The position numbers and the translations under genes were made by a program. Positions 4,566-30,324 of a DNA stretch of 38,255 bases are shown one piece after another. The stretch is from Butyrivibrio sp. (GTDB lineage: Bacteria; Bacillota; Clostridia; Lachnospirales; Lachnospiraceae), in NCBI GenBank assembly GCA_017413105.1, contig JAFPVA010000188.1:1-38255 (forward strand). Direction: 5' to 3'. Each line of letters opens with the position of its first letter. Positions within the stretch are counted from its first letter, which is position 1. The notes under the pieces were generated by a model. That model made no database searches, had not been told where the DNA came from, and saw only the letters and a list, made by a program, of their open reading frames with translations.

Positions 4566-4940
4566 ATGCATATTTTACTTAATAAAACCTCAATGGTACC
4601 TATTTATGAGCAGCTTATTGATCAGATCAAGAAGGAGATCATAAGCGGAGAACTTAAGGATGACGAGATGCTTCCATCTGTGAGGACGCTTTCAGGGGAA
4701 CTTCGGATCAGTTCATTAACAGTTAAAAAGGCTTACGACAAACTCGAGGAAGAGGGGTTCGTTATTACTGTTCATGGCAAGGGCACATTTGTGGCGGCCA
4801 CAGATCATCAGCTTGCCATGGAGGCCAGACGTAAGTCGGTGGAGGAAGAGATGGCGGCTGCTATTGATAAAGCCATAGCGCTTGGAATGAGCAAAGAGGA
4901 GATATTGGAGATAGCAACCATCATAATGGAGGAATACTAA
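4566..4940 (+). CDS. GntR family transcriptional regulator, YtrA subfamily
   Basis: A 124-residue DNA-binding regulator. The N-terminal winged helix (residues about 8-78) has the family pattern PIYEQLIDQIKKEIISGEL, LPSVRTLSGELRISSLTVKKAY and EEGFVITVHGKGTFV. The short helical tail (residues 80-124) is typical of the YtrA subfamily, which lacks a large effector domain and is usually encoded with an ABC transporter it represses. A GGAGGATGAGAT ribosome binding site precedes the ATG. The stop codon overlaps the next ATG (TAATG), so it is translationally coupled to the ABC ATPase. Its probable operator surrounds the promoter at 4502-4550. Confidence 0.92.
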   Translation: MHILLNKTSMVPIYEQLIDQIKKEIISGELKDDEMLPSVRTLSGELRISSLTVKKAYDKLEEEGFVITVHGKGTFVAATDHQLAMEARRKSVEEEMAAAIDKAIALGMSKEEILEIATIIMEEY

Positions 4941-5773
4941 TGATTAAGGTTGATAATCTTGTTAAGGAATATGGCGATTTCAGACTTGATGTTTCACTGG
5001 AGATACCGGATGGAACAGTAACAGGACTGATCGGCAAGAACGGAGCCGGAAAGAGCACAACGATAAAATCAATACTGGGCCTCATCAGACCTGATAAAGG
5101 CTTAGTTACTATAAACGGCAGAGAAGTATTTGCACTTACAAACTCTGAGAAATGCATGATCGGAGCCGCAATGTCAGACTCAGGCTTTAGCATGTACTTA
5201 AGCGCAGAGGATGTGATACATATTTTGAAGAAGATGTATCCGCTCTTTGACGAAGCGTTTTTTAGAAAAAAGTGTTCTGAACTGAGTATACCACTTAATA
5301 AGCAGCTTAAGGATTTCTCTACAGGAATGAGAGCTAAGCTCCGCGTTCTCATAGCAATTAGTCATAAGGCAGAGATCCTTATTATGGATGAGCCAACCGC
5401 AGGACTTGATATTGAGGCCAGAAATGAGACACTTGATCTTCTAAGGCAGTACCTTGCGGACAATGAGAACTGTTCAATTCTCATAACATCACATATATCA
5501 TCAGACCTTGAGGGCCTGTGTGATGACATTTATCTGATAAGTGATGGAAAGGTAGTTGTCCATGAAGATACTGATGTTATTCTGGGCAAATACGCACTTC
5601 TTAAGATGGACGAGAAATCATATGAAAATCTTGATAAAGAATATGTCCTTAACACGAAAAAGGATAGCCACGGAGTTGTGTGTCTTACTAATGAGAAACA
5701 ATTCTATGCCGAGAACTATCCGGACATTGTTATTGAAAATGGCAATATAGATGACCTGATTTTATATATTTGA
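4940..5773 (+). CDS. ABC transporter ATP-binding protein (GntR-associated)
   Basis: A single nucleotide-binding domain of 277 residues that energises the permease encoded next. Walker A is GLIGKNGAGKST (near residue 30), the signature region is DFSTGMRAKLRVL (a weak form of LSGGQ), Walker B is ILIMDEPTAGLD and the switch His is in ITSHISSDL. The C-terminal 60 residues are the variable extension common in ABC-2 export ATPases. It overlaps the GntR gene by one base and the following permease reading frame begins at its stop. The substrate cannot be told from sequence. YtrA-type operons are often induced by cell-envelope stress or antibiotics (family knowledge). Confidence 0.9.
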   Translation: MIKVDNLVKEYGDFRLDVSLEIPDGTVTGLIGKNGAGKSTTIKSILGLIRPDKGLVTINGREVFALTNSEKCMIGAAMSDSGFSMYLSAEDVIHILKKMYPLFDEAFFRKKCSELSIPLNKQLKDFSTGMRAKLRVLIAISHKAEILIMDEPTAGLDIEARNETLDLLRQYLADNENCSILITSHISSDLEGLCDDIYLISDGKVVVHEDTDVILGKYALLKMDEKSYENLDKEYVLNTKKDSHGVVCLTNEKQFYAENYPDIVIENGNIDDLILYI

Positions 5774-5793
5774 TGAGTGTAGGAGGTAGAAAA

Positions 5794-6447
5794 ATGCGCG
5801 GACTAATTGAGAAAGACCTTCGTCTGCTGTTTAAGAGAAAGCAGATTTTTGCTGTAATAATTTTTGTTGAAATTATGCTGGGAATAAGCGGTTCAGGCAA
5901 TTTCGCAGTTGTTTATTTTACGATGCTTGCCGGAATCATCGCTGCGGGAACTTTAAGCTATGATGAGTTTGATAACGGATTGGAATTTCTGTTCACCCTT
6001 CCCATAGACAGGAAGACCTATATAAGGGGAAAATACGTGCTCTGCGCTGCCTTCTGCGCAGTGGCCTGGCTAATTTCCATTGGTTTATATGCTATCACCG
6101 AAATGATAAGTGGTCACAATGCAGATATTATTGCAGAGCTTCCGTTGCTTTTTATCATTCTGCCCAGTATGTCTATGATGTCTACTGTAATTCTTCCGTT
6201 GCAGCTGAAATTTGGCTCTGAGAAAGGAAAAGTTGCTCTTTTTGTTATTTGTGGATGTCTGGCTGCTGCTATTGTGCTTATAAAGAATATGTTTTTTGAT
6301 ACTGAGGAAGCTATGCTAAGCCTTGTATACGGATTACAGGGAATATCAATGGGCGCTGTAATACTTGGTTTTACTGCTGTTTGTATACTGGTTGTGTTAA
6401 TAACATATTCTTTGAGTGTAAAGATAATGCAAAACAAGGAATTGTAA
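5794..6447 (+). CDS. ABC-2 type permease
   Basis: Integral membrane partner of the preceding ATPase, about 218 residues with six probable hydrophobic helices. They include IFAVIIFVEIMLGISGSG, VVYFTMLAGIIAAGTLS, YVLCAAFCAVAWLISIGLYA and a C-terminal VILGFTAVCILVVLITYS. The conserved ABC-2 stretch SYDEFDNGLEFLFTLPIDRKTYIRGK is present (about residues 48-75). I chose ATG 5794 because AGGAGGT at 5781-5787 sits 6 bases before it. The frame is open to a TTG at 5770 that has no ribosome binding site. No terminator is obvious after the stop. Confidence 0.85.
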   Translation: MRGLIEKDLRLLFKRKQIFAVIIFVEIMLGISGSGNFAVVYFTMLAGIIAAGTLSYDEFDNGLEFLFTLPIDRKTYIRGKYVLCAAFCAVAWLISIGLYAITEMISGHNADIIAELPLLFIILPSMSMMSTVILPLQLKFGSEKGKVALFVICGCLAAAIVLIKNMFFDTEEAMLSLVYGLQGISMGAVILGFTAVCILVVLITYSLSVKIMQNKEL

Positions 6448-6561
6448 AAAAATTATAATTTTATTTCATTTTGTGTTGACAATTTGAAATTATAGTGCAA
6501 AAATGAGTGAAGTCAGTTAGCTACAGACTGACAAATATTAAAGAAAGCGAGGTAAAGAGTT

Positions 6562-6642
6562 ATGACATTATTCGTGGCGACAAGAACAAGACTATTTAAT
6601 AACCATTTTATGACTTTACCTCGGGATGTTGTGTTCAGATAA
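6562..6642 (+). CDS. Putative 26-residue leader peptide of the ABC exporter attenuator
   Basis: A small ORF with a GAGG Shine-Dalgarno site 9 bases upstream (6549-6552), itself inside protector hairpin arm 1. The peptide begins MTLFVATRTRLF and ends PRDVVFR. Codons 8-10 encode Arg-Thr-Arg, a +X+ motif of the type at which macrolide-bound ribosomes stall (established for erm-type leaders). A ribosome held at codon 9 would sit between hairpin arms 1 and 2 and free arm 2 to form the antiterminator. No other function is suggested. It is analogous in position to the BmrB leader of Bacillus bmrCD, but I do not claim homology. Confidence 0.75.
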   Translation: MTLFVATRTRLFNNHFMTLPRDVVFR

Positions 6643-6689
6643 GGTAGCATTTTAGCTGCGCATATTTGAATATTTACTTGTGTAAGATT

Positions 6690-6731
6690 ATCCCCAGGTA
6701 CAGGATTTGACCGATACCTGGGGATTTTTTT
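6690..6731 (+). terminator. Conditional intrinsic terminator (attenuator) before ABC exporter
   Basis: A perfect 11-bp stem, ATCCCCAGGTA with TACCTGGGGAT, with a 14-base loop and a run of seven T (6725-6731). It lies 58 bases before the exporter start and after the leader ORF, so it would terminate transcription unless arm 3 is captured by 6618-6627. Confidence 0.88.
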
Positions 6732-6788
6732 GTGCATCTTACTTATCCCGAGAATTACTAGTTTTAAGGCTTGAAAGGAGGAATTGAC

Positions 6789-8519
6789 TTGAATACATTA
6801 GGCAGCTACATCAAAAAGCATTGGGCCACCTACACTATGGCCATCGTATTTATGCTTTTTGCAATAGCTTTAGATATGCTGTATCCAAAGATAACAGAAG
6901 TTATTGTTAATGAAGTAATCGTTGCCCGCGATTTTCACAGGCTTTGGATTCTGCTGGCAGCTATACTGCTGATCGGCATAGGACGCAGTATCTTCGGATA
7001 TTTTAAAGAATTTACATTTGATAAGAACTGTATAACCATCGGAACTGAGATGAGAAAGGATCTTTTTGACCACATTCAGGGACTTTCTTTGGACTACTTC
7101 GATGATGCGAACACCGGCGAGCTCATGGCCAGGGTAAAAGATGATATAGACAAGGTTTACCAGATGGTTGGCATGGAGGCAATGCTTGGAATCGAGGTAA
7201 TCCTGAACGTGGTACTGGTATTGTACTTCATGGTTACTATAAATCCGCTTTTGACTCTGCTTCCGGTATTCTGCATGATAATCTGCGGAAGCGCAGCCAT
7301 CATCATGGAGAGGAAGCTTGATAAGGTATACGACGACATCAGTGAGGAGAACGCTGAGCTTACAACCATCGCAGAAGAGAATCTTGCAGGAGTAAGGACA
7401 GTAAAGGCCTTTGCAAGGGAGCAGATGGAGATTGAGAAGTTCAGAAAGCACAACGAGAAGTACTATGACCTCAATATGAAAGAGGCCAAGACTATCATAA
7501 AGTTTTACCCGGTATTCCAACTGGCAGCTATGTTCCTTCCGGTTGCCTGCGCAGTACTCGGAGGTATCTCAGTCATAAGAGGTCACATGAACCTGGGCTC
7601 ACTTACAGCATACATCATCTACAGCCGTAACTGCACATGGCCAATGGAGGAGATTGGATGGATCACAAACGGTTTTTCCAGCTCAATCGCATCTCTTAAG
7701 AAGATCAAAAAGATCTATGAGGAGCATTCAACTCTGGAAGTGAACGAAGCGCCTATACAGGTTGAGAGAATTGATGGAAATATTGAATTTGAGCACGTTT
7801 CACTTTGCTTTGGTGATAAGCAGGTCCTTGATGACATCAGCTTTAACCTTAAGTCCGGCAAGACTCTTGGAATCATGGGAGAAACCGGTTCCGGAAAATC
7901 AACCATCATCAACCTGCTTCAGAGATTCTATGATCCAACCTGTGGATGCATCAGGATTGACGGCGCAGACATTAAGGATATGGATTTAAGCCAGGTAAGG
8001 GCTGCATCAGCAGTAGTTATGCAGGATTCATTTCTTTTCTCGGATTCCATCGAAGAGAACATCAAGATGGGCAGGAGAGATGATATGACGATGAATGAGA
8101 TTGAGGATGCAGCAAGGATTGCCCAGGCTGATGATTTCATAGAGAAGCTTGAACAGTCCTATGAAACTGTAATTGGAGAAAGAGGAGTAGGCCTCTCCGG
8201 AGGTCAGAAACAGAGAATCAGTATTGCCAGAGCCGTATCCAAAAAGGCTCCGATACTGGTACTTGATGATTCAACTTCGGCTCTCGATATGGAGACAGAG
8301 GCTGAAATTCAAAAGACACTTGATACAATCACCGGTGTTACCAGGGTTATAGTTGCCCACAGAGTTTCTGCAGTAAGAAACGCTGATGAGATCATCTATC
8401 TTAAGGATGGTCGCATCGCAGAGAGAGGTACACACCAGGAACTTATGAACAGAAGAGGACTTTACTACGACACCTATGTGGCTCAGTACGGGCCTCTTGA
8501 GAGAAAGAAGGTGAGCTAA
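6789..8519 (+). CDS. Heterodimeric ABC exporter subunit with degenerate ATPase site (BmrC/TM287-like)
   Basis: A half-transporter with an N-terminal six-helix membrane domain (about residues 1-310) and a C-terminal ATPase domain. Walker A is GIMGETGSGKSTI and the signature is the canonical LSGGQKQR. Walker B reads ILVLDDSTSALD, so the catalytic Glu is replaced by Asp, as in the non-consensus subunits of BmrCD and TM287/288. The switch His is kept (VIVAHRVSA). The start is the TTG at 6789, because AGGAGG (6776-6781) is 7 bases ahead; the open frame from TTG 6771 would place that site inside the coding region. The next subunit follows its stop directly. Likely a drug or lipid exporter; the substrate is unknown. 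Confidence 0.93.
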   Translation: MNTLGSYIKKHWATYTMAIVFMLFAIALDMLYPKITEVIVNEVIVARDFHRLWILLAAILLIGIGRSIFGYFKEFTFDKNCITIGTEMRKDLFDHIQGLSLDYFDDANTGELMARVKDDIDKVYQMVGMEAMLGIEVILNVVLVLYFMVTINPLLTLLPVFCMIICGSAAIIMERKLDKVYDDISEENAELTTIAEENLAGVRTVKAFAREQMEIEKFRKHNEKYYDLNMKEAKTIIKFYPVFQLAAMFLPVACAVLGGISVIRGHMNLGSLTAYIIYSRNCTWPMEEIGWITNGFSSSIASLKKIKKIYEEHSTLEVNEAPIQVERIDGNIEFEHVSLCFGDKQVLDDISFNLKSGKTLGIMGETGSGKSTIINLLQRFYDPTCGCIRIDGADIKDMDLSQVRAASAVVMQDSFLFSDSIEENIKMGRRDDMTMNEIEDAARIAQADDFIEKLEQSYETVIGERGVGLSGGQKQRISIARAVSKKAPILVLDDSTSALDMETEAEIQKTLDTITGVTRVIVAHRVSAVRNADEIIYLKDGRIAERGTHQELMNRRGLYYDTYVAQYGPLERKKVS

Positions 8520-10298
8520 TTGGCTAACTCATTTCGTGAAGACGAAAACCTGCAGCATACGGACATGAAAAAAGTCTTCGTGAGAATGATGGGCTATTTA
8601 AAACCTCATATAGGTGAGATTATACCGGTTTTGATATCCCTTGCAGTATGCGTGGGAATCAATCTGGTAAGCCCGCTTTTTATGGAGTACGCAATTGACG
8701 TACATGTTGCAAATAAAAATGTTAAAGGACTGCTGACAGTAGCAGGAATAATAGTTGTTTTAGGACTTATCTACGCAGGGTTTGTAAGACTCAGAATTTA
8801 CCTGATGAACAGGATAGCAAATAAGGTCCTTCTTGATATAAGACAGGAGCTTTATGAGCATGTACAGACTTTGTCATTTACCTTTTTTGACAACAGACCC
8901 ACAGGAAAGATCCTTTCAAGGATAATCGGTGATGTCAACTCGTTAAAAGAAGTTATGGCAAATACAATAACAAACCTGATCCCCAACTTTGTAACAGTAT
9001 TCGGCGTAGTATTTATCATGATGGCAAAGGACTGGAAACTGGCCCTTGGAACTCTTTGTTCCATGCCAATCATGGTGATCAGTATCTGGTGGATCAGGGA
9101 GAGAACCCACAAGAGCTGGCAGGATGTGAGGAAGAAATCCTCAAACATGAATGCCTATGTACATGAGGACATCGCCGGCATCTCAGTGGTTCAGAGCTTC
9201 AATGCTGAGAACGAGACCAAGAAGACCTTCAGAGGCCTTGCCAACGAGCACAGGGATTCATATATCCTTGCCTGCAAGTATTCAGACCTCTTTGGTCCTG
9301 CAATTGATATGAGCTGGGCAATCAGCAGCATGGTTCTGTATATGGTAGCTGTCAGGTTCCTTGGATATACGCAAAGCTCTATCGGTCTTATTGCTGCATT
9401 TGCTACTTATGCAAACATGTTCTGGCGCCCTATTATGGGACTTTCCGGTTACTACAATCAGATGGTTACCAACATGTCAGCAGCTGAAAGAGTATTTGAC
9501 CTTCTTGATACAGAGGCTGAAATTGTGGATAAAGAGGGGGCAGGAGATCTTCCGGATGTTGAAGGAAGAGTTGAGTTTGAGAACGTTGGATTTACCTATG
9601 ATGAAGGCACCAAGGAAGAAACTAAGGTTCTTGATAATGTGAGCTTTTCAGTAGAACCCGGCGAGACCATAGCTCTTGTAGGACCTACCGGTGCAGGAAA
9701 GACCACAATCGTAAATCTTATCAGCCGCTTCTATGATATTCAGAAAGGTAAGATCAAGATTGACGGACATGACCTTACAGATGTTACCATTAACAGTCTT
9801 CGTCGCCAGATGGGTGTTATGACCCAGGATAACTTCATCTTTCATGGCACGGTAAGGGAGAACATTCTGTATGGTAAGCCTGATGCCACTGAGGAAGAGA
9901 TGATAGCAGCTGCTAAGGCTGTAAATGCTCATGATTTCATCATGAAGATGGAAAAGGGCTACGATACAGAACTCAAGGAGAGAGGCGCAGGTCTTTCAAT
10001 CGGTCAGCGCCAGCTCATAGCCTTTGCAAGGACCATGATCTCCATGCCAAAGATCCTTATTCTGGATGAGGCTACAAGTAGCATTGATACTCATACTGAG
10101 ATGTTGGTTCAGCAGGGTATCCAGACTCTGGTTTCCGGAAGAACAAGCTTTGTTATTGCTCACAGACTTTCAACCATCAAAAATGCCAGCCGTATATTTG
10201 TGATAAACGGTGGTGGTATAGAGGAGAGCGGAAGTCACGAGGAACTGATGGCTAAGAAGGGTGCATACTATGACCTGTACATGGCTCAGTTCGCATAA
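8520..10298 (+). CDS. Heterodimeric ABC exporter subunit with catalytic Walker B (BmrD/TM288-like)
   Basis: The second half-transporter, 592 residues, begins at TTG immediately after the previous stop, with AAGGTGAG just upstream. The membrane domain covers about residues 30-330. The ATPase domain has Walker A LVGPTGAGKTT, Walker B ILILDEATSSID with the catalytic Glu, and switch His in FVIAHRLST. Its signature is LSIGQRQ instead of LSGGQ. In heterodimeric exporters the altered signature of one subunit faces the altered Walker B of the other. The two changes here therefore fall in the same degenerate site, strongly supporting a functional heterodimer. A terminator follows. Confidence 0.94.
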   Translation: MANSFREDENLQHTDMKKVFVRMMGYLKPHIGEIIPVLISLAVCVGINLVSPLFMEYAIDVHVANKNVKGLLTVAGIIVVLGLIYAGFVRLRIYLMNRIANKVLLDIRQELYEHVQTLSFTFFDNRPTGKILSRIIGDVNSLKEVMANTITNLIPNFVTVFGVVFIMMAKDWKLALGTLCSMPIMVISIWWIRERTHKSWQDVRKKSSNMNAYVHEDIAGISVVQSFNAENETKKTFRGLANEHRDSYILACKYSDLFGPAIDMSWAISSMVLYMVAVRFLGYTQSSIGLIAAFATYANMFWRPIMGLSGYYNQMVTNMSAAERVFDLLDTEAEIVDKEGAGDLPDVEGRVEFENVGFTYDEGTKEETKVLDNVSFSVEPGETIALVGPTGAGKTTIVNLISRFYDIQKGKIKIDGHDLTDVTINSLRRQMGVMTQDNFIFHGTVRENILYGKPDATEEEMIAAAKAVNAHDFIMKMEKGYDTELKERGAGLSIGQRQLIAFARTMISMPKILILDEATSSIDTHTEMLVQQGIQTLVSGRTSFVIAHRLSTIKNASRIFVINGGGIEESGSHEELMAKKGAYYDLYMAQFA

Positions 10299-16218: not shown

Positions 16219-18945
16219 TTATTTCCTGGCTTTACGGGCTCTGTGTCTGTATATCCAGAGATTTGTATAGCATATAGCAGCAAGTACAAGAGCAAGTAAA
16301 ATGACGATGACTATACGTAATATTAATTTATTGATATTGACTGCCTCGTAAGCAATTGAGTACTCTGAGAATTTGTCTGTTCTGAAGGTTATGGTCGTGG
16401 GTTCGTCGTCCAGGTCAGTTAGAATATCAACGTCTCCGTTATGATTTCTAAGTATGCAGAAATTCCAGTTTTTGCCAAGGTATTCAGTTGGAACAGGAAG
16501 AACAACAAGCATTTCGGCACCTGTACGAGTCAGAACTTCACTGTTTCCACTCATGGTTTTCATGACAAAGAAATCAAAATATCTAAGAGGCTTATAGCCG
16601 ACCATTTTTTGCATAAGAGACTTGGTAGCAGCATCTACAGTGTCCGTATTATCGCTTATGCTCACATTAAACAGAATGGGAGTTCCTTCAAAAGCGGATA
16701 GTTTTTCGTCGGCTGAAAGAGTTTTTGATACCACTTCTTCAAAATTCATTATGGAAGGGTTGTCAAAATACAATCCCTGAGCTGTTTCCTGCTGGACTAG
16801 TGCATAGCTGTTATTTACTGATACTCTGATGATTCCGGTCTCATAGGCTTCTTTTAGCAGGGCCATTTCAGAGCTGTCATTTATCAGCCTGCGGACAGTT
16901 TCTTCATCAAGTCCGTGTCTTGCGATAATACTGTTTGGACTGATAGTCTGGTTGGAATCTGTTGCTACTACAGGTGTTTCCTGCGCAGGTACATAGGTGT
17001 CTTCTGCATATTCGCTTCCTTCAAGCTCGGTTACTTCATCTGAGGGGGTATCGAAGAATATGATCTGTTCAGGAATTGCGCCTTCCTGTGCAGTGTCATC
17101 ATTATACTCAGTTTTCGGAGCAGTCGGCTGCTTTTTGACAGCTGAAGTCTGTCCGGTAGTGGAAGCTGACTGTTTTGCCGGTTGAAGTGGAATTTTTTCA
17201 AAGCTTACAGCTATTGAGTGAGCGCCGGTTACATTATTGAAGGTATAGCTACCAAGGGCTCCAATATTCTTTCCATCGACAGCAACAGCAAGAACTCTGT
17301 AGCCGGTGTCAGGAACCATGTTATAGGTAACACTGCCGCCTTCTGTAACTATATAATCGCCACTGGGAACGATTGCGCCGCCTTCATTGGCTATACCGGA
17401 GACGATCTTGTAGGTCTTGGCGGCCTTTTTTCTGAAGGAAGCAGTAATATTAACATCGTAATCAAGAGACTTTATCTCATAGGTTTCGTCATAGGATACA
17501 ATCTGACCATTGATGATCCATCCGGCAAATTCATAGCCATTATAAGGGGTTTCTTTAAGAACAACGCGCTGTCCTCTGTCAAAGGTTCCGGCATAATCTA
17601 CTTTTCCTGAATCGCTTGGAGTGACATTTGCGTAAATCGTGCGCTTTGCTCTTTCAAAAACAGCAGTAATATCACGATCAGAAGTTATGTTGCTTAACTG
17701 AATCGAACTGGATTCGCTGAGTGTCTTGTTATTTTCTACGAATTTGTTAAAAACATATCCGGTATTAGCTTTTGCAGTAATAGTGTAGCTTCCGCCGTAG
17801 CCTACATTGGAGCTGTCTGTAACAGTACCGCCATCTGAAGTATTCACACGGGTCCTGATATAGCAGGTCGCTCTGTTGAATTTAGCAACAAGATTTCTGT
17901 CGGAAGTAACGTTTGTAACATCAAACTGAGCAGCTGTGGAAATGAGGTTACTTCCCTCATACCATCCTGCAAAGGAGTAGTTGTTGTTAGGAGAAGCGGA
18001 TACTCTTACACTTCCACCATTTCTGACAGCGCCTCCGCCGGCTATTGCACCGCCATCAGAAGGACTTGCCTGAACGCTGACCATGTGGTCCACGCTTTGG
18101 ACATTTACCACGGCACCATCGTAATAATATGGATCCTGCACGGAAGTTGCAATGGCTGCAACAGAAGAGGAATCCTCGTCATTTCCTATTGTCAGGACAC
18201 CGCTACTGCTGATAGTAGTAGAGGAAGAGGTGTTTCCTGCTACTGACCAGTATACATTGGGATTATACCCATTTCCGCCGGAAACCTCTGCTTGAAACTG
18301 GTATGACTTTCCTGCGGCAACAGTAACTCTGTCGGGATATACGGTAACATCTGTTATGTATGGATCCTGCGCCCGAATCGATACTGTAACTGTTACCTGA
18401 ACCCTATGGTGTTGTCTTATGTCATTTGCTGAATAAAAGACGTAATTTGCACTATAGTCGCCAGGTGCCAGATCATTGGTTGTATATACCTCGAATCCAA
18501 TCTGAGACCCAGGTGAAAGATTCATGTCCGCTCCACACATAGGCATGATAAAGAATGCTGTTGATGAGTCAAATTCATCCCAGGTTAGTGGAAAGGAATT
18601 GCTACCAATATTTACGATAGAAAACTGAAGCGGATCTATATAATCTCCTTCGTATCTGGTTCCAAAATTCATATTTGGTGTGTAGCAGGTAAGGTTATAG
18701 TCAAAAGGATCGGGCTGGCTTTCGCCGCCACCTTCGTTTTTGGATTCATTACCTCCATCATAGGGATCGCCGTCACTCTGACTGTCACCGCCCTGATCCC
18801 AATCTCCTTCGTTCTGCTCATCAAAGATTACATTAGAATCCTCGCTCGCATAGATTTTTTCTATTTTCGATGTCAAAAAACAACTGATTACAAGGCAGAC
18901 TGCAAGGATGATGGCATTAACTCTGTTAAAAAGACTTTTTTTCAT
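16219..18945 (-). CDS. Large secreted, membrane-anchored repeat surface protein
   Basis: A 908-residue extracellular protein of unknown role. In order: signal peptide (residues 1-34, ending near IYAS); an Asp/Gly/Asn-rich acidic stretch (about 38-82); a beta-sandwich-like domain (83-190, with FGTRYEGDYIDPLQFSIVN); a bacterial Ig-like domain (about 195-285, TVYPDRVTVAAGKSYQFQAE); four InlB-B/Listeria-Bacteroides-type repeats of about 70 residues (288-585, recurring DGGxV, GYxFxGW and ITAxF motifs); a Thr/Pro/Gln-rich linker (586-690); an unrecognised globular region (690-865); one C-terminal membrane helix (LILRIVIVILLALVLAAICY); and a basic RHRARKARK tail. There is no LPxTG motif, so anchoring is by the helix. 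AGGAGGT precedes the ATG. Adhesion or wall-contact is a guess from the domain type. Confidence 0.85.
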   Translation of the reverse strand: MKKSLFNRVNAIILAVCLVISCFLTSKIEKIYASEDSNVIFDEQNEGDWDQGGDSQSDGDPYDGGNESKNEGGGESQPDPFDYNLTCYTPNMNFGTRYEGDYIDPLQFSIVNIGSNSFPLTWDEFDSSTAFFIMPMCGADMNLSPGSQIGFEVYTTNDLAPGDYSANYVFYSANDIRQHHRVQVTVTVSIRAQDPYITDVTVYPDRVTVAAGKSYQFQAEVSGGNGYNPNVYWSVAGNTSSSTTISSSGVLTIGNDEDSSSVAAIATSVQDPYYYDGAVVNVQSVDHMVSVQASPSDGGAIAGGGAVRNGGSVRVSASPNNNYSFAGWYEGSNLISTAAQFDVTNVTSDRNLVAKFNRATCYIRTRVNTSDGGTVTDSSNVGYGGSYTITAKANTGYVFNKFVENNKTLSESSSIQLSNITSDRDITAVFERAKRTIYANVTPSDSGKVDYAGTFDRGQRVVLKETPYNGYEFAGWIINGQIVSYDETYEIKSLDYDVNITASFRKKAAKTYKIVSGIANEGGAIVPSGDYIVTEGGSVTYNMVPDTGYRVLAVAVDGKNIGALGSYTFNNVTGAHSIAVSFEKIPLQPAKQSASTTGQTSAVKKQPTAPKTEYNDDTAQEGAIPEQIIFFDTPSDEVTELEGSEYAEDTYVPAQETPVVATDSNQTISPNSIIARHGLDEETVRRLINDSSEMALLKEAYETGIIRVSVNNSYALVQQETAQGLYFDNPSIMNFEEVVSKTLSADEKLSAFEGTPILFNVSISDNTDTVDAATKSLMQKMVGYKPLRYFDFFVMKTMSGNSEVLTRTGAEMLVVLPVPTEYLGKNWNFCILRNHNGDVDILTDLDDEPTTITFRTDKFSEYSIAYEAVNINKLILRIVIVILLALVLAAICYTNLWIYRHRARKARK

Positions 18946-28233: not shown

Positions 28234-30324
28234 ATGAACGTTTACACGACTGACAAGATTAGGAACGTAGTGCTGCTAGGCCACGGTGGCGCCGGCAAGA
28301 CAAGTCTCTCTGAGGCAATGGCTTATCTTGCTGGCATAACATCAAGGATGGGCAAAGTAGAGGATGGAAACACACTCTCTGATTTTGATAAAGAAGAGCA
28401 GAAGAGACATATTTCCATAAGCACTTCAACAATTCCGTTGGAATGGGATGGTCATAAGATAAATATTCTGGATACTCCTGGATTTTTCGATTTTGTTGGT
28501 GAAGTTGAAGAGGCTATCAGCGTAGCAGATGCAGCAATTATTGTTGTGTCAGGTAAGGCTGGTATTGAAGTTGGTACAGAGAAGGCATGGGATATGTGCG
28601 AGAAATATAAGATTCCGCGTATGTTCTTTGTATCAGACATGGATATCGATGATGTTTCCTATAGACAGGTAGTTCAGGATCTTACTGATAAATACGGCAA
28701 GAAGATGGCTCCTTTCAATCTTCCTATCCGTGAGAATGAGAAGTTTGTCGGCTATGTAAATGTTATCCAAGAGAAGGGATTTAGATGGGAAGGCAAGGAA
28801 GTTGTTGAATGTCCTGTTCCTGAGTACAATCAGGCAAACTTGAAGCTCTGCAAGGATACTTTGGTAGAATCAGTTGCTGAGACTTCAGAAGAGTTCATGG
28901 ACAGATATTTTAACGGAGATACATTCTCAGAAGCAGAAATCAGAGCTGCTGTTCGCTCAAATGTATGTGATGGCACAATTGTTCCTATTGAGATGGGATC
29001 AAGCACTCTCTGCCAGGGTATTTATACACTTCTCGATGATATTGTGAAGTATATGCCAAGCCCTGAGAACCGTAAAATGGCTGGTATCAATACAAATACC
29101 AACGAGATTTTCGAAGCTGATTTCGATTTCTCCAAGCCTAAGACAGCTTTCGTATTCAAGACTATGATCGATCCATTTATTGGTAAGTATTCGCTTATCA
29201 AGGTTCGTTCAGGTGTCCTTAAGCCTGATGATACAATGTTTGTAGCAAATAAGGATGCTGAGGTAAAAATCGGTAAGCTCTACGTACTTCAGGGCAATAA
29301 GGCTACAGAAGTATCCGAGCTTCATGCCGGTGACCTCGGTGCTCTTCAGAAGATAGATGTAGCTACGGGAGATACTCTTTCTACAAAGGCTACTCCGGTT
29401 CAGTATGCTAAGATGGATATTTCACAGCCATATACAGCAATGAGATATCATGCTCAGAATAAGAGCGATATTGACAAGATTGCACAGTCTCTTGCAAAGC
29501 TTGCAGCTGAGGATCAGACTCTTAAGGTTGTAAATGATGCAGAGAATCGCCAGACACTTCTTTATGGTATGGGCGATATGCACCTTGAAGTTGTTCAGAG
29601 TAAGCTCCAGAACATATACAAGGTTGCCATTGATCTTACGAAGCCAAAGGTAGCTTTCAGGGAGACTATCCGCAAGAATGCAGATGTAGAGTACAAGTAC
29701 AAGAAACAGACCGGTGGACATGGTCAGTACGGACATGTTAAGATGCGCTTCGAACCATCAGGTGATCCTACTACTCCATATATCTTTGAGCAGGAAGTTG
29801 TAGGTGGAGCAGTTCCTAAGAATTTCTTCCCTGCAGTTGAGAAGGGTATTGCAGAGTCTGTTCAGAGAGGACCTCTTGCAGCTTATCCTGTTGTTGGAGT
29901 TAAGGCTACACTTTATGATGGATCCTATCATCCTGTAGATTCTTCAGAAATGGCCTTTAAGGTTGCTGCTTCAGGTGCGTTCAAGAAAGGTTTCATGGAA
30001 GCAACTCCTGTACTTCTTGAGCCCATCGTTTCTCTTAAGGTTACAGTCCCTGATGCTTACACAGGTGATGTAATGGGAGATCTTAACAAGAGAAGAGGAA
30101 GAGTTCTTGGTATGAATCCTTCACTTACCGGAAAACAGGTAATTGAGGCTGAAGTTCCACAGATGGAGCTCTTTGGATATAACACCCAGCTTCGTTCTAT
30201 GACAGGTGGAAGTGGTGAATTCGAGTATGAATTCAACAGATATGAGCAGGCTCCTTCAGATGTTCAGGCAAAAGAAGTTGCAGACAGAGCTGATAAGGTT
30301 GCTGCAGCAAATTCTGAGGAATAA
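28234..30324 (+). CDS. EF-G-like translational GTPase with atypical G motifs
   Basis: A 696-residue paralogue of elongation factor G, with all five domains present to the C-terminal SMTGGSGEFEYEFNRYE. G1 is GHGGAGKTS (16-24). Several normally fixed motifs differ. The switch I ERGITI is KRHISIS (57-63). The G3 DTPGH has Phe84 in place of the catalytic His (DTPGFFDF). The G4 NKMD reads SDMD (134-137). These changes suggest slow or absent GTP hydrolysis, or altered nucleotide binding. It resembles the second EF-G (EF-G2/FusA2-like) group, not the housekeeping fusA, which normally sits beside rpsL-rpsG-tufA. It is not a typical Tet ribosomal-protection protein. TGGAGG precedes the ATG; it is a single gene with its own terminator. 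Confidence 0.88.
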   Translation: MNVYTTDKIRNVVLLGHGGAGKTSLSEAMAYLAGITSRMGKVEDGNTLSDFDKEEQKRHISISTSTIPLEWDGHKINILDTPGFFDFVGEVEEAISVADAAIIVVSGKAGIEVGTEKAWDMCEKYKIPRMFFVSDMDIDDVSYRQVVQDLTDKYGKKMAPFNLPIRENEKFVGYVNVIQEKGFRWEGKEVVECPVPEYNQANLKLCKDTLVESVAETSEEFMDRYFNGDTFSEAEIRAAVRSNVCDGTIVPIEMGSSTLCQGIYTLLDDIVKYMPSPENRKMAGINTNTNEIFEADFDFSKPKTAFVFKTMIDPFIGKYSLIKVRSGVLKPDDTMFVANKDAEVKIGKLYVLQGNKATEVSELHAGDLGALQKIDVATGDTLSTKATPVQYAKMDISQPYTAMRYHAQNKSDIDKIAQSLAKLAAEDQTLKVVNDAENRQTLLYGMGDMHLEVVQSKLQNIYKVAIDLTKPKVAFRETIRKNADVEYKYKKQTGGHGQYGHVKMRFEPSGDPTTPYIFEQEVVGGAVPKNFFPAVEKGIAESVQRGPLAAYPVVGVKATLYDGSYHPVDSSEMAFKVAASGAFKKGFMEATPVLLEPIVSLKVTVPDAYTGDVMGDLNKRRGRVLGMNPSLTGKQVIEAEVPQMELFGYNTQLRSMTGGSGEFEYEFNRYEQAPSDVQAKEVADRADKVAAANSEE

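Follow-up and report, generated by a model that had tools for sequence, protein, structure and literature searches.

We judge it probable that the leader upstream of an ABC exporter gene pair in Butyrivibrio sp. is a transcription attenuator that senses slow early translation, with read-through into the exporter when ribosomes are held at the start of a short leader open reading frame (ORF). This reading draws on comparison of the window (the whole 38,255-nucleotide stretch of DNA analysed) with related loci, and it would make the leader a form of ribosome-mediated transcription attenuation working like bmrB-bmrCD and vmlR. An original prediction, made from the window's letters alone, had proposed that a heterodimeric ABC exporter is controlled by transcription attenuation through a leader peptide, with a logic parallel to bmrB-bmrCD. 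That much is supported here, and a check of sequence and indices found the ORF, protector, antiterminator and terminator all where they had been placed. Features beyond that prediction are the coincidence of the protector's 5' arm (arm 1) with the leader's own Shine-Dalgarno (SD) sequence, a 5' hairpin (P0) whose loop pairs with the ORF, a further arm 3' of the terminator (arm 5), and a hairpin at 6633-6640/6664-6671.

All parts of the element lie on the plus strand. The region 6490-6735 folds at -73.9 kcal/mol, compared with -48.6 ± 4.1 kcal/mol for shuffled sequences (z = -6.2; 0 of 200 shuffles as low). A predicted promoter for the leader-exporter transcript (6476-6504; TTGACA, a 17-nt spacer and AAAAAT, with TG before the second hexamer) scored 10/12 in a consensus scan and was one of eight promoter-like sites in 601 bases scanned, compared with 2.4 in shuffles. 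The leader probably begins its own transcript, given that the ABC transporter genes upstream of it end at 6447. This upstream segment (4566-6447) encodes a GntR-type regulator and an ABC ATPase resembling PmtR and PmtA (below cut-off), as well as a third small gene with no family match, and is probably a separate operon. P0 (6512-6532; stem 6512-6518 with 6526-6532, loop AGCUACA) begins 8 nt 3' of the predicted promoter end (6504). Its loop segment GCUAC (6520-6524) is complementary to GUGGC in the Val-Ala codons of the ORF (6574-6578), and the predicted pseudoknot encloses the leader SD and start codon.

The leader ORF (MTLFVATRTRLFNNHFMTLPRDVVFR; 26 codons, 6562-6642, ATG at 6562 and TAA at 6640-6642) has its own ribosome-binding site and precedes the gene it would regulate, as in known leader attenuators. 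Its SD, GAGGT, is contained in arm 1 (cgaggtaaag, 6548-6557), the 5' arm of the predicted anti-antiterminator and a perfect complement of 6614-6623 (10/10 pairs by index check). Arm 2 (CUUUACCUCGGGAU, 6614-6627) has arm 1, arm 3 and arm 5 as alternative partners. The predicted antiterminator (6618-6627 with 6690-6699) forms 9/10 pairs, or 10/11 when U6617-A6700 is added, with C6622 opposite C6695 as its only mismatch in the window; its loop contains hairpin 2':X at the ORF end (6633-6671; 6633-6640 with 6664-6671). The intrinsic terminator (6690-6731) comprises arm 3 (6690-6700), arm 4 (6715-6725) and a run of seven T (6725-6731) whose first T belongs to the stem; the stem is complementary at 11/11 positions, and arm 3 doubles as the terminator 5' arm and the antiterminator 3' arm. 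This terminator was absent from the list of a pattern scan because its 14-nt loop exceeds the scan's loop limit of 8 nt. Helices 1:2 and 2:3 and the intrinsic terminator are predicted to be mutually exclusive, as expected of an attenuator. Arm 5 (uaucccgaga, 6744-6753), 3' of the terminator, is a complement of arm 2, and the exporter SD (aaaggagga, 6774-6782) precedes a TTG start at 6789 that matches the start of its orthologs.

The two genes that follow (6789-8519 and 8520-10298), assigned by sequence motifs and by family and sequence searches, are predicted to encode a heterodimeric ABC exporter with one degenerate site. Loss of the catalytic Glu in one half and a degenerate signature in the other, leaving one degenerate site, is the hallmark of such exporters. 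Subunit 1 carries LDDSTSALD, in which the catalytic Glu is replaced, together with LSGGQ, whereas subunit 2 carries LDEATSSID and the degenerate signature LSIGQ. Both subunits match TM_0288 (3qf4) and YheI/YheH (7m33), the latter of which we take to be BmrC/BmrD, and many eukaryotic multidrug exporters score higher. No NCBIfam cut-off was reached among the best 25 of the 187 (subunit 1) and 186 (subunit 2) matching families.

Presence of the leader coincides with that of the close exporter. Exporter matches (E <= 1e-150) were found in 38 of 79 Butyrivibrio genomes, with an identity of at least 74% in 18 of them and 53% in the next. A covariance model of the 5' half of the element (R1, P0 through the end of the ORF) matched 29/79 genomes at E <= 0.001, 18 of them at E <= 7e-17 (best of the rest, 3.9e-6). 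These 18 are exactly the 18 genomes with an exporter at least 74% identical; each match lies just upstream of the exporter, and the leader ORF was located in all 18/18. Conservation of the ORF and arms in relatives, on which the original prediction had staked itself, was found. Genomes that carry the element include those of B. hungatei DSM 14810 and B. proteoclasticus P6B7. Alignments A1 and A2 comprise 20 leaders, the window included: those of 17 of the 18 Butyrivibrio genomes plus L058, L049 and L050. They exclude L059 (a near copy of L032) and the unoriented minus-strand copies L019, L022, L023, L027, L028 and L031, the first five of which are present as oriented copies; peptide counts (n = 21) add L140, the leader of L031's genome, which A1 and A2 leave out. 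A terminator hairpin before a T run was present in 20/20 folded leaders, including that of the window.

Exporter relatives below 74% identity were inspected by eye. L034 is without such a leader, L035-L045 and L062-L080 carry other leaders, mostly on the same SD/anti-SD plan, and the ORF list of the distant loci L081-L124 holds no such leader. The leaders of L035-L045 (exporters 44-48% identical) are of another type (MLKTRN..VVTSQEFAQ, MIKTRY.., MIRIKV..), with the SD AAAGGAGGTAA, the arm 2 GTTACCTCG and, by eye, two tandem terminator-like hairpins; Lys/Arg-X-Arg/Lys is common near their N-terminus. Among other Lachnospiraceae exporters (L062-L079), ITSAD or ITSAY is the C-terminal sequence of many leaders, for which an anti-SD arm, ATTACCTCC, is the coding sequence, and the terminator 5' arms hold GGTAAT; by eye, the plan is the same and the sequences differ.

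Across the 20 leaders, P0 was paired in 96.3% of cells, with double-sided changes in 6/7 pairs. In A1, the window's own P0 register gave 43.9% owing to a one-column shift of three rows, and it was replaced by the register giving 96.3%. Helix 1:2 was 99.4% paired, and 7/9 modelled pairs were invariant, and such invariance yields no covariation. Within arm 2, UUUACCUCG was identical in 20/20 leaders, and L049 and L050 retain the same nucleotides in a different reading frame; arm 2 is therefore kept as RNA. The original prediction had called for a covariation test of the pairing arms. The terminator (95.1% of cells paired) had 8/11 pairs changed on both sides, whereas double changes in the antiterminator were not above those in shuffles: the structure tested, which took in 2':X plus P0 in the wrong register, had 8 doubly changed cells compared with 5.4 in shuffles (130/500 shuffles reached 8), and sliding it by -1 gave more double changes (29) and an equal covariation score (0.169). 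Covariation of 2:3 is weak. The helix itself was 81.6% paired over 11 positions, with two pairs changed on both sides, and hairpin 2':X was 89.5-98.2% paired over three stretches, likewise with two such pairs. The central 2:3 position was paired in 0/20 exporter leaders and 0/23 leaders of a second family described below, a constant mismatch that perhaps keeps the antiterminator weaker than the terminator. The duplex of arm 2 with the downstream arm 5 beat at least 95% of shuffles in 15/20 leaders, the window included.

The pairing of the P0 loop with the Val-Ala codons of the ORF was complete, with all 100 of 100 cells paired (5/5 pairs in 20/20 leaders) compared with an average of 96.5% in shuffles, of which 0/500 reached 100%. 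Two pairs were changed on both sides, a count reached by 18/500 shuffles; compensatory sets included GUUGC with GCAAC (L049) and GUUAC with GUGAC (L033), and slid versions of the pairing were 20-66% paired. The case for this pseudoknot rests on covariation in the 20 leaders rather than on held-out leaders, for which the test was weak to moderate (shuffles matching the observed pairing: 867 for L140, 257 for L156 and 60 for L249, of 5000 each).

Because the leader SD and arm 1 coincide, a ribosome that is stuck at initiation would mask arm 1 and free arm 2. Folding of the 20 leaders as transcripts cut at arm 3 is consistent with this: 2:3 had at least 7 expected pairs in 15/20 leaders with a ribosome on the AUG, reached at least 5 in 6/20 without a ribosome, and had at most 1.8 in 18/20 with a ribosome at the stop codon. 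Two leaders scored with too wide a terminator (L057 and L060) are both among the five failures in the AUG state. In the window, expected pairs in 1:2 and 2:3, respectively, were 7.1 and 3.8 for the free RNA, 0.0 and 8.8 with a ribosome at the start codon, and 6.1 and 0.0 with one at the stop. When arm 4 was included, 3:4 exceeded 2:3 in every ribosome state, and antitermination must therefore, we infer, be kinetic.

In the mechanism that we propose, helix 1:2 would form on a leader without a ribosome and transcription would terminate; a fast ribosome would cover arm 2 on reaching the stop codon, and transcription would again terminate. A ribosome held at initiation or on the first codons would mask arm 1 and melt the 5' pseudoknot, and the freed arm 2 could capture arm 3 before arm 4 is synthesized, so that the exporter would be transcribed. 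In the read-through RNA, arm 2 could then shift to arm 5. The likely signals would be large-subunit drugs by which early elongation is slowed or blocked; no fixed +X+ stall motif would be involved, and the exporter would then export the inducing drug.

An alternative reading places the signal in the leader peptide. Penultimate Ala, and less so Ser or Thr, favours arrest by chloramphenicol and linezolid (PMC8987054, in the text available), and a conserved Ala (codons 4-10) might serve as that residue in a phenicol/oxazolidinone context stall. [VIL]A was present in 21/21 leaders, compared with a shuffle mean of 5.0 (0/2000 shuffles reached it, relatedness among leaders being ignored). However, the reading of Val-Ala as a phenicol-type motif was weakened once the P0 loop was found to pair with the same nucleotides. 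The Ala codon lies inside the loop-pairing segment, with its compensatory changes, in 18/20 aligned leaders, which suffices to account for its being conserved in those leaders, and Val-Ala conservation is largely explained by RNA because the loop pairs with those codons. The exceptions are L030 and L033, in which Val-Thr codons (GUGAC) are the partner of the loop and Val/Ile-Ala comes later, so that RNA pairing does not explain their Ala, and Ala may be under selection in the peptide. Placing Ala in the P site gave at least 5 expected 2:3 pairs in 8/20 leaders, compared with 6/20 without a ribosome and 5/20 one codon further. In the window, however, the Ala-position footprint (1:2, 7.9) left 2:3 unchanged (3.6-3.7 versus 3.8 free), and only 17/41 second-family leaders have Ala in codons 2-7. 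We regard a phenicol- or oxazolidinone-specific stall as unlikely. RNA pairing can thus pass for a conserved leader-peptide motif, and caution is due when drug specificity is deduced from such peptides.

The original prediction had called the attenuator macrolide-type, with drug-bound ribosomes stalling at Arg8-Thr9-Arg10 and this specific stall driving antitermination. Codons 8-10 of the window leader do encode Arg-Thr-Arg, and +x+ is the motif at which macrolides arrest ribosomes on MefAL (MTASMRLR) and ErmDL (PMC10314930, in the text available). As a conserved signal, however, +X+ was rejected: its count of 4/21 leaders, one of them the window's, is near chance (shuffle mean 2.4; 396/2000 shuffles reach 4), RTR is found in the window leader alone, and +X+ occurs in codons 2-9 of only 3/41 second-family leaders. 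By arithmetic, moreover, a codon-9 ribosome (P site 6586, footprint ~6571-6602) lies between the arms and covers neither, which makes it doubtful that a codon-9 stall alone would block 1:2. Since a ribosome on the AUG would mask arm 1 and one at codon 9 would cover neither arm, the anatomy appears to be best fitted by sensing of ribosomes held at initiation or on the first codons, and the macrolide-specific stall is improbable.

Further support for an attenuator comes from a related chassis that precedes RsgA-like, GNAT-RsgA and ABC-F genes. Weak R1 matches pointed to second-family leaders that share the SD arm, have ACCTCGG near the end of the ORF and a terminator starting CCGTGG, often with a later arm, GGTCTCCATAC, and are followed by genes other than the exporter. 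The pattern AAAGNGAGGTN{40,70}ACCTCGG had 63 matches, exporter leaders included, in 49/79 genomes, compared with 2 for the reversed pattern. A model of this family (R2) was built from 23 leaders (alignment A3; 26 selected, less L157, L159 and L163 after manual removal, with L147 standing in for L148) and matched 53/79 Butyrivibrio genomes and 36/397 Lachnospiraceae genomes (34/334 genera). Some R2 matches are exporter leaders (among them those in G007, G012 and G064, E 3e-4 to 9e-4, and L239). The exporter and second families are linked by their plan and by weak cross-hits and may share descent. The window's own genome (assembly ~95% complete) had no second-family member by the pattern or by R2, and a looser pattern matched one further place in it (C254).

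The 71 distinct leader records were followed by genes for long GNAT-type proteins (23 records), exporters (19), RsgA-like GTPases (16), small GNATs (4), an ABC-F protein (1), a P-loop kinase (1) and other products (4), and no next gene was found in 3; these classes were assigned by sequence patterns in fetched loci only, and near copies remain. Eight representatives were checked against protein families. L195 encodes a ribosomal-protection-like ABC-F protein (score 407.7, cut-off 380), L145 an RsgA (TIGR00157; 155.5, cut-off 100), L147 a single chain with GNAT and RsgA domains, and L152 and L144 GNATs; L143 encodes a P-loop protein with a marginal chloramphenicol phosphotransferase match (22.5, cut-off 22.0), the L171 product has an A/B-hydrolase-like N-terminal domain match, and the L157 product has no family match. 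GNAT-RsgA fusions and RsgA-like GTPases behind a same-plan leader attenuator (L147:1760-3115, L145:1737-2717 and others) are many among the fetched Butyrivibrio and other Lachnospiraceae loci. It is possible that these proteins are ribosome-protection factors, and the shared chassis points to the RsgA-like fusions as candidates for such a role.

Arm 5 paired with the SD of the next gene (at least 2.5 expected pairs) in 25/32 second-family leaders, a count that includes the ABC-F gene and many near copies and has no shuffle control. This complementarity points to additional control at the level of translation, as in vmlR. At the ABC-F locus itself (L195:3-1346, minus strand), arm 5 of the second-family leader pairs with the SD of the ribosomal-protection-like gene. 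As an anti-Shine-Dalgarno arm, arm 5 was rejected for the exporter family, though it fits the second: at most 4/20 exporter leaders had such pairing, L032 among them via another segment, and exporter leader L127 was not counted in the tally.

At somewhat less than an even chance, we suggest that the exporter leader is one branch of an undescribed Lachnospiraceae translation-stress regulon, in which one SD-arm chassis would have spread before efflux exporters, an ABC-F gene and a GNAT-RsgA fusion, the last of which would be a new kind of factor for protecting or repairing ribosomes. Among the exporter leaders, the P0 loop would lock the first codons and so gate leader initiation. Gut and rumen Lachnospiraceae encounter ribosome-targeting drugs, and the chassis shared by exporters, an ABC-F gene and GNAT-RsgA fusions would provide a sequence tag for such a possible regulon.

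The strong conservation and covariation of P0 and its loop-ORF pairing might instead reflect a ligand-binding aptamer, the element being a riboswitch-like switch in which the leader ORF is secondary. Yet P0 is small (7 pairs), the second family is by eye without P0 and nevertheless retains the SD, ORF, arms and terminator, and Rfam release 15 gave 0 gathering-level matches in the window and in 11 related loci, all of which leaves an aptamer very improbable. Matches at a permissive Rfam threshold were sub-gathering and to unrelated RNAs, and we read them as chance. A constitutive terminator with a non-regulatory small ORF, the exporter simply being held low, is scarcely credible: the terminator is favoured in all folds that include arm 4, but the arm 2 core is invariant in two reading frames, the ORF and SD pairing are conserved, arm 5 is present in 15/20 leaders and the related chassis precedes other genes.

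A ribosome-sensing attenuator in this position has counterparts, which we compare using the portions of the cited reports that were available. In Bacillus subtilis, experiments on bmrB-bmrCD showed that leader translation and 50S drugs control read-through (PMC4191407). The Butyrivibrio element resembles this system in having a leader ORF, a predicted anti-antiterminator, an antiterminator and a terminator before a multidrug ABC exporter pair; it differs in that bmrB has 53 codons with the terminator inside the ORF, whereas the Butyrivibrio leader has 26 codons and 47 nt from stop to terminator (PMC4191407). Also unlike bmrB are the use of the leader's own SD as arm 1, the predicted pseudoknot between 5' hairpin and ORF, and arm 5. 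For vmlR of Bacillus subtilis, a ribosome arrested at initiation was found by experiment to be the sensed state (PMC9226507). Shared with vmlR are a uORF in the anti-antiterminator, an antiterminator with a small apical hairpin, an intrinsic terminator and an extra pairing 3' of the terminator in the read-through RNA. However, the vmlR uORF has three codons and the gene is an ABC-F, and its SD is single-stranded before SL-1, whereas the SD of the Butyrivibrio leader is itself the 5' arm (PMC9226507).

Further systems share part of this plan. Leader-peptide attenuation before resistance or efflux genes is common to MefAL and ErmDL, but their +x+ motif is not conserved in Butyrivibrio leaders (PMC10314930). 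The patAB genes of Streptococcus pneumoniae, likewise an ABC exporter pair, are preceded by a terminator for which both an antiterminator and an anti-antiterminator are predicted; the accessible text of that report names no leader ORF and links induction to fluoroquinolones or DNA damage (PMC4319486). The toiL uORF of Escherichia coli topAI is similar in that it senses several classes of ribosome-targeting drugs, but it acts via translation and Rho, whereas the Butyrivibrio leader would act via an intrinsic terminator (PMC12121999). Exporter attenuator leaders are a known kind, since ABC transporters are the family with the most attenuator candidates in a genome-wide survey of premature terminators (PMC2965389). 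Searches of the literature, mostly without subscription journals, returned nothing on this element among Lachnospiraceae or Butyrivibrio leader attenuators and no leader-RNA drug sensor described for gut or rumen Lachnospiraceae.

Two other genes in the window were noted by eye. A large protein encoded at 16219-18945 (minus strand) has, in translation, a signal-like N-terminus and a C-terminal membrane anchor as well as repeated segments, and the 696-residue protein encoded at 28234-30324 looks like an elongation factor G paralogue.
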